Of a stretch of 64,000 bases of DNA, positions 2,418-15,372 are shown one piece after another. The DNA is from Oscillospiraceae bacterium. Lineage in GTDB: Bacteria > Bacillota > Clostridia > Oscillospirales > Ruminococcaceae. The notes beneath the pieces were generated by a model. The model made no database searches and was not told where the DNA came from. It worked only from the letters and a program-made list of their open reading frames with translations. Within the stretch, counting starts at the first letter, position 1, and every line of letters starts with the position of its first letter. The DNA lies in contig JAGAUA010000064.1 in NCBI GenBank assembly GCA_017847885.1, positions 1 through 64,000 on the forward strand, read 5' to 3'. The position numbers and the translations under genes are program-made.

Positions 2418-2481
2418 TACGGCTTGCCCTGCGGTGCCAGCTTAAACTATTCGGGTGTTGGCACATTTAATTTGGAGTAAA

Positions 2482-2608
2482 GTTTGAAAATAAATTTTCA
2501 AACCCGAGTTTTGTTTTCCTTGCTGCCGCAAGAAATTTGCTTAGCTGACTTTGTCAGTTTCAAACCACAAAACATCGGAAAGGAGTGCATTTTCCCTTCG
2601 GGAAAATG
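2482..2608 (+). repeat. Four-hairpin intergenic element, copy 1
   Basis: Order: H1, a perfect 10-bp inverted repeat (2482-2491/2494-2503); an outer stem CCGA-GTTTTGT (2504-2514) pairing with ACAAAAC-a-TCGG (2567-2578); inside it H2 (CTTGC/GCAAG, loop TGCC, 2519-2532) and H3 (CTGAC/GTCAG, loop TTT, 2545-2557); then H4 (CATTTTCCC/GGGAAAATG, loop TTC, 2588-2608). Copies occur at 4488-4616 (+) and 15228-15360 (-). H2 and H3 stems differ between copies while pairing is kept. It lies in the sense direction between two genes and touches the start of the HAD gene. Confidence 0.8.
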
Positions 2609-3274
2609 GTAATAATTTTGGAAAATTTTGATGTAATACTTTTTGACCTTGACGGAACTGTTATCGACTCCGAGGAGGGCATCACAAAATGCGTCCGCTA
2701 TACCCTTGAAAAATTCGGCATTACGGAAAACAGCCGCGAAAGGCTGATACGCTTTATCGGACCGTCGCTGATATATTCCTTTACGGAGTTTTACGGCTTC
2801 GACAAGGCGCAGGCGGAAGCCGCAGTCGCAGTATACCGCGAAAGATATTCGGTGACGGGAATTATGGAGTGCAGGGTCATCGACGGCATTCCCGAGGCGC
2901 TTAAGCTGCTTTCGGAGTCGGGAAAACGGATAGGTCTTGCAACCTCAAAGCCCGAGGTGTATGCGGAAAAGATACTGAAAGCCTTTGAAATCGAGAAGTA
3001 TTTCGATGTCATAACAGGTGCGGAGCTTGACGGCAGCCGCATTGACAAGGCGGACGTTATCGAGGAATGTCTGCGGCGCATGGGCTATCCCGACAGAAAA
3101 AGCGTGCTGATGGTCGGTGACAGAAAGCACGATATTGAAGGGGCAAAGCTTTGCGGCGTATGTTCCGCCGGTATACCCTATAATTTCACGGAGCCAGGCG
3201 AGTTTGAAGCTGCCGGGGCGGAGTATATTTTTGACAGTCCCGTTTCTCTTGCACGCGCTGTTTTGCGGCTTTGA
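2606..3274 (+). CDS. HAD-superfamily hydrolase, phosphoglycolate phosphatase-like
   Basis: About 222 residues with the HAD signature motifs in order: FDLDGTVIDS (nucleophile and acid Asp), ATSKP (motif II), the conserved lysine region, and GDRKHDIEGA (motif IV). The alpha-helical cap follows motif I, as in Gph-type phosphatases that hydrolyse small phosphate esters in the cytoplasm. The start is uncertain: ATG 2606 lies in the 3' arm of hairpin H4, TTG 2618 lies just after it, and GTG 2585 overlaps the only Shine-Dalgarno-like sequence (AAAGGAG, 2579-2585). TTG 2618 would be about 11 bases from that site if the hairpin is folded. Confidence 0.88.
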   Translation: MVIILENFDVILFDLDGTVIDSEEGITKCVRYTLEKFGITENSRERLIRFIGPSLIYSFTEFYGFDKAQAEAAVAVYRERYSVTGIMECRVIDGIPEALKLLSESGKRIGLATSKPEVYAEKILKAFEIEKYFDVITGAELDGSRIDKADVIEECLRRMGYPDRKSVLMVGDRKHDIEGAKLCGVCSAGIPYNFTEPGEFEAAGAEYIFDSPVSLARAVLRL

Positions 3275-3365
3275 AGCAGCCCGTAAAAGGAATATTCCGC
3301 TGTACAATAATCCGCCGCGGATTATGTGCAGGTTGACAAAAAAATTGTATGTATCGGATAATGCC

Positions 3366-3394
3366 TTGACATAATTCCACGAATGTTGTATTAT
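3366..3394 (+). promoter_or_regulatory. Promoter upstream of the PocR-chemotaxis gene
   Basis: TTGACA (3366-3371), 17-base spacer, TATTAT (3389-3394). A second TTGACA lies slightly upstream near 3333. The leader holds a short hairpin (GGCTG/CAGCC, about 3420-3435) before ATG 3479; no riboswitch class was recognised. Confidence 0.6.
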
Positions 3395-3478
3395 TATAAA
3401 TGAAAAATAGTTTGTTTTTGGCTGCTCAAACAGCCATTTTATACCAAATTCTATATTGTAAAGAAACGGGGCTTCATT

Positions 3479-4486
3479 ATGGTTGACGTAAAACTTACTG
3501 ATTTGATCGACGTTAAAACTCTTCAGGAAATTCAGGACGGGTTTGCCGCTCTTACGGGTATGGCTGCGCTGACGACAGACGCAGACGGCAACGCTGTAAC
3601 AAACGGAAGCAATTTCACGGATTTTTGTATGAAATATACAAGACAGTCACGCTTGGGCTGCTCAAGATGCGAGCAGTGCGACAAATCCGGCGGCGAGGAG
3701 ACTATGCGCACCGGTAGGGCGGCTGCGTATTTCTGCCATGCAGGTCTTGTTGACTTTGCTGCACCTATTATGCTTAACGGACAGTTTATCGGCTCGTTTA
3801 TCGGCGGTCAGGTTCTGCCCGAAGCTCCCGATGAGGACAAATTCCGCCAGATCGCGGAGGAGCTTTCCATTGACCCCGACGCATACGTTGCGGCGCTCAG
3901 AAAGGTAAAGATCGTTGAAAAAAGACAGATCGACGCTGCTGCGGATTTCCTGCGCATAATCGCAAAGGTGCTTTCTGAAACTGCGTACAGCAACTACCTT
4001 GCAAGCCAGTCCAATGCAGGACTTACATTGAGAAACCGCAATATGATAAGCAAGATCGCCGAGTCCGAGGCTGCGTTAAGCCGCAGCACAAAGCGTATCA
4101 ATACTCTTGAACAGGCTTTCGACGATGTAAGCCGTGTTGCGGCAGAGTCTGCAAAGGAAGTCGCTTCAACTACCGATACCGTAAAGGTTATCCAGGATAT
4201 TGCCATGAACACCAAGATCCTCGGCTTTAACGCTTCCATCGAGGCTTCAAGAGCCAAGGAAAGCGGAAAGGGCTTCGGCGTTATCGCGCAGGAGGTAAGA
4301 AACCTTGCAGAGACCAGCAAGATATCCGCAGACAAGATAGAGTCGGCAATGCAGCATATCGGCGGATACTCCAAGGAAATGACCGAGCATATCGGACAGA
4401 CCAGAGAGGCTGTTAAGGAATGTCTCGAAAACCTCAAGGAATTTGCAAATATCCTTGAAGAGCTTAAATCAATGTCCGAGGAATAA
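3479..4486 (+). CDS. Soluble PocR-domain methyl-accepting chemotaxis-like protein
   Basis: 335 residues, no signal peptide and no membrane segment. Residues about 10-170 form a PocR ligand-sensing domain, a cytoplasmic sensor known for small organic ligands and rich here in cysteines (CSRCEQC). Residues about 195-330 are a coiled-coil MCP signalling domain with the hairpin-tip motif NASIEASRAKESGKGFGVIA and EVRNLAE, the site that docks CheA and CheW. The whole protein is short for a chemoreceptor and is probably a cytosolic receptor or a signalling adaptor. The next gene encodes a YjfB-like motility protein, which supports a motility role. The stop codon is followed one base later by repeat copy 2. 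Confidence 0.9.
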   Translation: MVDVKLTDLIDVKTLQEIQDGFAALTGMAALTTDADGNAVTNGSNFTDFCMKYTRQSRLGCSRCEQCDKSGGEETMRTGRAAAYFCHAGLVDFAAPIMLNGQFIGSFIGGQVLPEAPDEDKFRQIAEELSIDPDAYVAALRKVKIVEKRQIDAAADFLRIIAKVLSETAYSNYLASQSNAGLTLRNRNMISKIAESEAALSRSTKRINTLEQAFDDVSRVAAESAKEVASTTDTVKVIQDIAMNTKILGFNASIEASRAKESGKGFGVIAQEVRNLAETSKISADKIESAMQHIGGYSKEMTEHIGQTREAVKECLENLKEFANILEELKSMSEE

Positions 4487-4487
4487 A

Positions 4488-4616
4488 GTTTGAAAATAAA
4501 TTTTCAAACCCGAGTTTTGTTTTTCAAGCTGACGCTTGAAATTTTGTGCAGCCGACTACGTCGGGCTTAAAGCCACAAAACATCGGAAAGTAGTGCATTT
4601 TCCCTTCGGGAAAATG
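4488..4616 (+). repeat. Four-hairpin intergenic element, copy 2
   Basis: Same order as copy 1: H1 4488-4497/4500-4509; outer stem CCGA-GTTTTGT (4510-4520) with ACAAAAC-a-TCGG (4575-4586); H2 TTTCAAGC/GCTTGAAA with loop TGAC (4522-4541); H3 CCGAC/GTCGG with loop TAC (4552-4564); H4 4596-4616, identical to copy 1. Compared with copy 1, H3 changes a T-A pair to C-G and H2 is rewritten on both arms. Confidence 0.8.
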
Positions 4617-4680
4617 GTCATAATTATGATACCGATCTTTTAAGATCAGTATAAATAAGCTGTGCAAAGGAGGATCACAT

Positions 4681-4875
4681 ATGGATCTGGCTAACTCGAT
4701 CGCTCAGATGTCTATGACAATGAGTACCGCAAAGCTTCAGCAGAGCGTGGAAACTTCCATGATGAAGAAGGCTATGGACACAAGTGCAGATATGATAAAG
4801 GGCATAATGGAAATGGCCGATTCAGTGCCTAAGTTCAGCGGAGAGGTCGGAAGTATGCTTGACGTAAGAGCATGA
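4681..4875 (+). CDS. YjfB-family putative motility protein
   Basis: A 64-residue protein with the pattern of the YjfB family: N-terminal hydrophobic-polar helix ending in a Met/Gln-rich stretch (MSMTMSTAKLQQSV), then KKAMDTSADMIKGIMEM. Members are small proteins linked with motility genes; the molecular role is not known. ATG 4681 follows AAAGGAGG at about 7 bases. It sits directly after the chemotaxis-like gene, separated by repeat copy 2, and ends before a strong terminator. Confidence 0.8.
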   Translation: MDLANSIAQMSMTMSTAKLQQSVETSMMKKAMDTSADMIKGIMEMADSVPKFSGEVGSMLDVRA

Positions 4876-15227: not shown

Positions 15228-15360
15228 AAATGAACGCGTACTTTCGTTCATTTCGATGTGTTAAGCCAAACAAAGCCCCGACGTTTTACGGTTTTGCGAA
15301 GCAAAATTTCTCACGTCAGTGAGAAAAGTAAAACTCGGAAACGAACGCAGCGCGTTCGTT
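15228..15360 (-). repeat. Four-hairpin intergenic element, copy 3
   Basis: Read on the minus strand: H1 AACGAACGC/GCGTTCGTT (15340-15360); outer stem CCGA-GTTTTAC (15328-15338) with GTAAAAC-g-TCGG (15278-15289); H2 TTTCTCAC/GTGAGAAA with loop TGAC (15307-15326); H3 TTTTGC/GCAAAA with loop TTC (15292-15306); H4 AAATGAACG/CGTTCATTT (15228-15253). The outer stem keeps its A/T core with a GTTTTGT to GTTTTAC change matched on the other arm. It lies between cysE and cysS in their sense direction. Confidence 0.75.
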
Positions 15361-15372
15361 TTAATTCCGAAT

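Follow-up and report, generated by a model that had tools for sequence, protein, structure and literature searches.

Copies of a short structured repeat, two of which lie in the window analysed here (a 64,000-nucleotide stretch of an Oscillospiraceae genome), have been inserted in the sense of the neighbouring gene between its Shine-Dalgarno (SD) sequence and its start codon, where they keep a covarying fold and bring a new SD followed by a hairpin. We consider it probable, at roughly 0.7, that these repeats represent a non-autonomous mobile element that inserts at sites of translation initiation and brings a split ribosome-binding site to replace the original one. An earlier note on this DNA had missed the key feature, namely that copies are placed in the order SD, element, start codon.

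That note had reported copies at 2482-2608 and 4488-4616, and both were recovered with R1, a covariance model built from 27 element copies (Table 1). Its positions were right, except that the real end of the element lies about 10 nt past hairpin H4, at the start codon. The two copies have in common hairpin H1 (GTTTGAAAATAAATTTTCAAAC), the outer stem (CGAGTTTTGT/ACAAAACATCG) and H4 (CATTTTCCCTTCGGGAAAATG), and H2 and H3 differ on both arms with pairing kept, as had been described. A third copy in the window was not found: the sole other model match, on the minus strand, is a member of a distinct though kindred group of repeats (type B). The right boundary of copy 1 was set by pairs of filled and empty sites, and its final 2-4 nt possibly belong to the host. 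Homologues of the HAD-family phosphatase encoded downstream of copy 1 begin MKNFDVLLFDLDGT or MDRFDV, at the same residue as the TTG at 2618, and HAD_2 is found among the Pfam matches of the downstream set. Copy 2 adjoins the stop codon of the preceding gene (4484-4486; ORF 3479-4486), its first base being the last base of the stop. No gene begins at its end, where an ATG at 4626 opens 5 codons only, and the gene that follows (4681-4872) has its own SD.

Table 1. Parts of the two element copies and the related repeat in the window.
Feature	Position	Strand	Basis or context
Host-gene SD remnant GGAG, 5' of copy 1	2474..2477	+	sequence
Copy 1, entire element, AAGTTTG...GGTAATAATT	2480..2617	+	R1, 159 bits
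H1 hairpin, copy 1	2482..2503	+	helix 1: 96.7% of cells paired
Outer stem 5' strand, copy 1	2505..2514	+	helix 2: 98.7% of cells paired
H2 hairpin, loop C(UGCC)G, copy 1	2516..2535	+	helices 3-5
H3 hairpin, copy 1	2545..2557	+	sequence and covariation
Outer stem 3' strand with bulged A, copy 1	2567..2577	+	covariation
Element's own SD GAAAGGAG, copy 1	2578..2585	+	in 107/110 copies
H4 spacing hairpin, SD-to-start interval, copy 1	2588..2608	+	spacing and folding
HAD-family phosphatase gene, TTG start at the exact consensus start position	2618..3274	+	
Copy 2	4486..4625	+	R1, 150 bits
Decayed SD of copy 2, GAAAGTAG	4586..4593	+	sequence
H4 of copy 2	4596..4616	+	
Type B repeat	15240-15363	-	between cysE and cysS, then a terminator-like hairpin

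The genome holding the window (2.7 Mb, 65 contigs, 99.5% complete) gave 25 matches in a DNA search, which also matched most of the genus; public records matching the genus have titles that name uncultured Oscillospiraceae or Clostridia from animal guts. R1 gave 37 matches in the own genome and hit 19 of the 21 genus genomes, across which the family, of members about 105-150 nt long, numbers more than 100; these copy numbers are model-search counts with a soft lower edge, and the weak matches in genome G000 include the related type B family. At the level of the bacterial family, weaker R1 matches were found in 23 of 298 genomes and 18 of 126 genera. The latter count may be slightly high, since one copy from another genus (G247; L178/L209) is almost identical, flanks included, to a copy of G005 (L028/L044), and contamination of one bin is possible. 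Candidatus Flemingibacterium merdigallinarum holds at least five copies; among those inspected, L203 and L208 end directly at an ATG, with an SD-like 5' flank in L203. The element has no match in Rfam at gathering or relaxed thresholds, and no DNA match in the plasmid and phage collections. Two matches from outside the bacterial family were discounted: one in Rhodobacteraceae (L207), which is something other than the element, and one in a Desulfobulbaceae-labelled MAG, the contig of which (L194) recurs as a viral or mobile contig (L286, IMG/VR) with three identical matches (2122-2240, 2473-2611 and 6010-6138 in L194) and is probably misbinned. L194 and L286 represent a mobile element that encodes serine recombinase and KilA-N-like products, and two of the L194 copies, both lacking H4, directly precede large serine recombinase ORFs. 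The same contig carries at 1409-1489 a Rfam pemK RNA (RF02913, 60 bits), about 300 nt 5' of a PemK-like ORF.

The placement of the copies is highly regular. Their 5' flank ends in an AGGAGG-like SD at -7 to -2, and an SD 4-mer falls among the 15 nt next to the element on this side in 103 of 125 copies, against 17 and 23 of 125 in control windows located 20 and 40 nt further upstream. At the other end, an ORF encoding no fewer than 60 amino acids begins with an ATG not more than 6 nt from the model end in 98/125 copies, compared with 5.9% at random positions. An antisense start at the opposite end occurs in only 2 copies, in agreement with the earlier statement that the element follows the sense of its neighbours. 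Orthologous copies in sister species are not independent, and the counts far exceed what kinship could explain. By mechanical ORF calling, 27 of the 125 copies, window copy 2 among them, are not at a start codon. We also observed that the element end holds an ATG within H4 (ATGGTNATANNNATG), 12 nt 5' of the host ATG and in frame with it in most copies, so that automatic gene calling may give proteins a spurious MVII- N-terminus, as for window ORF 2585-3274. The H4 ATG was rejected as the true start: it is out of frame in L009, L010, L022, L024 and L025 and hence not required.

Orthologues without the element in other species of the genus have an ordinary SD-spacer-ATG arrangement. Filled and empty sites could be compared for RbfA, a KH-domain protein, a TM1266-like gene, the gene at L013, HisA, an M16 protease and YbaK, and the first three gave the cleanest pairs, with flanks near-identical in filled and empty sister species. 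At RbfA, AAAGGAGTT-element-ATG in G011 corresponds to the empty AAAGGAGTTATATATG in G017, the protein starts being 98% identical; at the KH-domain gene, ATCAGGAAGGATGA-element-TTTATGGAAGAA in G008 corresponds to the empty ATCAGGAAGGATGAATTTTATGGAAGAA in G009 (in short form, TTTATG 3' of the element against ATCAGGAAGGATGAATTTTATG); and the TM1266-like site, filled in G011, reads TTTGGAGGAAATATGGACACA when empty in G017 (short form TTTGGAGGAAATATG). Sites are filled in few species: 1/20 genomes for RbfA, 1/18 for IspD, 3/16 for the KH-domain gene (partly deleted in G006) and 2/19 for TM1266. In G002, the SD that IspD originally had can no longer be recognised. The insertion point lies 3-5 nt 5' of the start codon, and these patterns fit gain by insertion. 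Multiple dispersed copies were found together with empty orthologous sites, as expected of a MITE. No terminal inverted repeats were found, the ends 5'-AAGTTTG and GGTNATA-3' not being inverted repeats, and no consistent target-site duplication was detected at the filled/empty pairs. Duplication of the SD as target site was set aside, being seen at best in isolated copies, as was an IS607-like crossover at GG dinucleotides, which L013 and L010 fit but L011 and the KH pair do not. In the partly deleted copy of G006 (L246), H1 and the left strand of the outer stem are gone whereas the SD and H4 are kept, as expected if the ribosome-binding part alone is needed.

The element's own SD, found in nearly all copies (Table 1), follows closely on the 3' side of the outer stem and has a predicted mean unpaired probability of 0.66. 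It stands at least 25 nt from the start codon in 83 copies, with a median of 35 nt, and 82 of these 83 long spacers fold into a hairpin at -5 kcal/mol or below (mean -13.0 kcal/mol against -3.8 for shuffled spacers). With H4 looped out, the effective spacing has a median of 8 nt, an in-silico value that takes account neither of the geometry of the helix nor of unwinding by the ribosome. Where H4 is lacking, as in five copies of this count, the direct spacing is 9-16 nt. The two marks of a split ribosome-binding site, an SD too distant from the start and a conserved hairpin restoring the spacing, were both found. The SD has been lost from window copy 2 (GAAAGTAG) and from L002 (GAAAGAAG), neither of which ends at a functional start; a link between SD loss and the missing start codon is suggestive only, as it is drawn from just two or three copies and lacks statistical significance (Fisher p = 0.33, all copies). 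In the mechanism we propose, the element inserts in gene sense into the SD-start spacer and displaces the original SD to about 125 nt from the start; it would compensate with a new, mostly single-stranded SD following H1 and the three-way junction; and H4 would fold the 31-38 nt spacer down to about 8 nt, allowing ribosomes to start at the native codon. The data show the insertion, its position and orientation, the covariation and the presence of both the new SD and the hairpin; that ribosomes initiate from this SD across a folded H4 is what we infer.

The same placement could result from untargeted insertion, if only SD-ATG copies were retained and the host gene now depends on them. Reliance on the new SD would shield such copies from decay, and the decayed SD of the two copies without a gene start agrees with this view. 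Yet hardly any young copies in an intact state occur at other places, when neutral intergenic landings should last for a while, and we regard this explanation as unlikely.

The element also meets the upstream gene in a recurrent manner. This gene stops within H1, either at the TGA there or at a TAA, in 33/125 copies, and no more than 30 nt 5' of the element in 37 others, i.e. 70/125 together; at L009, a response regulator ends in ...GYKFEN and a stop. At the M16-protease locus, the genes overlap in G001 and the stop is supplied by the element in G000. The TGA of H1, sometimes a TAA, ends the incoming upstream gene, and the element thereby also separates overlapping genes. Such proximity, together with long stems in a polycistronic position, would equally suit an mRNA processing or stability element between cistrons, an RNase target similar to ERIC or NEMIS for which ribosome binding is a secondary role; ERIC and Correia elements work in this way (PMC3049150). 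This would leave the fixed distance to the start, the internal SD and the spacing hairpin unexplained, which makes it of low probability as the primary function, while an additional action of this kind is possible.

Selection on structure, claimed in the earlier note from the two window copies, is supported by the family as a whole. Covariation was evaluated over 45 pairs, with 80 copies aligned by MAFFT independently of the structure. Double changes affect 25 of the 45 pairs, compared with 15.0 +/- 1.5 after shuffling (none of 500 shuffles reached 25) and 8-16 in slid structures; the corresponding cells number 242, against 60.5 shuffled and 21-74 slid. Relatedness among copies, which the shuffles do not take out, remains in the slid control, and both controls agree. 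The fold consists of H1 and then a three-way junction, with conserved UNNC-type loops and outer stem, and all stems covary: helix 1 (H1) has double changes at 6 of its 9 pairs, and one pair of helices 3-5 (H2) in up to 37 of the 80 copies. H3 is often replaced in other copies by a short TTTTGC/GCAAAA stem, and H4 exists across species in the compensatory variants TTTTCCC/GGGAAAA, GCTTGC/GCAAGC, GCTTC/GAAGC and CTCCC/GGGAG. In the covariance-model search and covariation check that the note had called for, copies keep pairing genome-wide and in relatives.

This strong covariation, the position in the 5' leader and the conserved UNNC-type loops and outer stem would be expected of a cis-regulatory RNA as well, either riboswitch-like or a protein-binding leader, inherited vertically as a dispersed regulon and lost at some genes. 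However, the downstream genes share no pathway, 146 Pfam families being represented among 103 proteins with the commonest in 5, and this diversity argues against a pathway-specific leader or regulon. In addition, each tested gene is filled in only 1-3 of about 20 species, the rest having a normal SD-spacer-ATG, and only insertion would be expected to leave the host SD displaced to the 5' side of the element. Vertical descent of a regulatory RNA is consequently improbable.

The search for a mobilising enzyme covered Y1 transposase and reverse transcriptase, neither of which was found in the own genome, and no long copy enclosing an ORF was found among the model matches. Both enzymes were rejected as mobilisers, the own genome lacking the two and the copy-rich relatives lacking Y1. 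Movement as single-stranded DNA by a GGAG-targeting Y1 (IS200/IS605 or RAYT) transposase, in the manner of REP or PATE, would account for sense-only insertion and suits an element that is strand-specific, lacks terminal inverted repeats, has hairpins at both ends and a GGAG-rich left flank, but it is very unlikely, as Y1 transposase is missing from the own genome, the enzyme occurs in the genus only in G004, G015, G016 and G020, which hold 0-6 copies, and in none of the copy-rich genomes, H1 is unlike H4 and H4 is sometimes absent. The earlier alternative of an RNA element or a hairpin-processed mobile repeat therefore stands in part on both sides, given the empty sites and the preserved fold, and hairpin processing by a REP/IS200-type enzyme is unsupported.

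Beyond the replacement of a ribosome-binding site, we tentatively consider, at less than even odds, that the element may define a new class of mobile elements, the machinery of which would recognise the SD and start codon on the sense strand. Its cargo in that case would be a portable intercistronic translation module made of a self-contained split ribosome-binding site and a stop-codon-bearing 5' hairpin. The type B repeats share with the element H1 and the three-way junction (CCGAGTTTTAC...GTAAAACRTCGG), and the H1 hairpins covary. They have a variable H1 and a strongly conserved junction, carry neither SD nor H4, are not at start codons and are usually located shortly 3' of a gene, in the sense of this gene (L129, L130 with three copies, L131, L134, L135, L136, L137 and L138). 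Shorter type C copies without the junction adjoin some of them. If the new-class reading is true, type B would be the core without the translation parts, and the whole would make a modular superfamily.

The element is a small mobile repeat, which is a known kind; for its placement and built-in split ribosome-binding site we found no earlier description in the open papers searched. HEARO/IscB-type elements are structured RNA elements that have been reported beside start codons after integration; the element described here has no ORF, is much smaller and has no Rfam match. In Neisseria, REP2 is tied to contact-induced transcription and carries a promoter and a ribosome-binding site close to the ATG. 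This repeat of about 150 bp (REP2/CREN) lies directly 5' of several genes (PMC9031163). The position of the ribosome-binding site is alike in both, but unlike REP2 the element separates the host SD from the ATG, and its own SD is parted from the start by a hairpin. Split sites were proved in phage T4, where a hairpin between SD and AUG improves translation and reduces the spacing from 22 to 5 nt for gene 38 and from 27 to 11 nt for gene 25 (PMC3014915); these are single evolved loci of T4-type phages, whereas the element is a mobile family that has brought the arrangement to more than 80 genes. RUP, BOX, ERIC and Correia/NEMIS are like the element short, mostly non-coding, structured, intergenic and non-autonomous, with tens of copies, and some repeats of this type alter the expression of neighbouring genes (PMC2229807, PMC3049150). 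Unlike them, the element is strictly sense, shows no terminal inverted repeat or target-site duplication, and combines insertion in the SD-start spacer with a replacement SD and spacing hairpin; the passages on small repeats in PMC2229807 and PMC3049150 do not mention such placement. In the open literature searched we met no account of a mobile element aimed at the spacer between SD and ATG.

Which enzyme can target SD-ATG spacers becomes a testable question. Start-codon annotation is affected too, since proteins may be given additional MVII-like N-termini, or may start at a TTG, which is the case in the window. Mobile elements entering at a gene start normally break that gene. The present element lands at the most sensitive spot of the leader and seems to bring its own built-in repair, and the more than 80 genes concerned constitute a natural experiment on the working of hairpin-bridged ribosome-binding sites. 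Its activity would account for rewired operon junctions in these gut bacteria.
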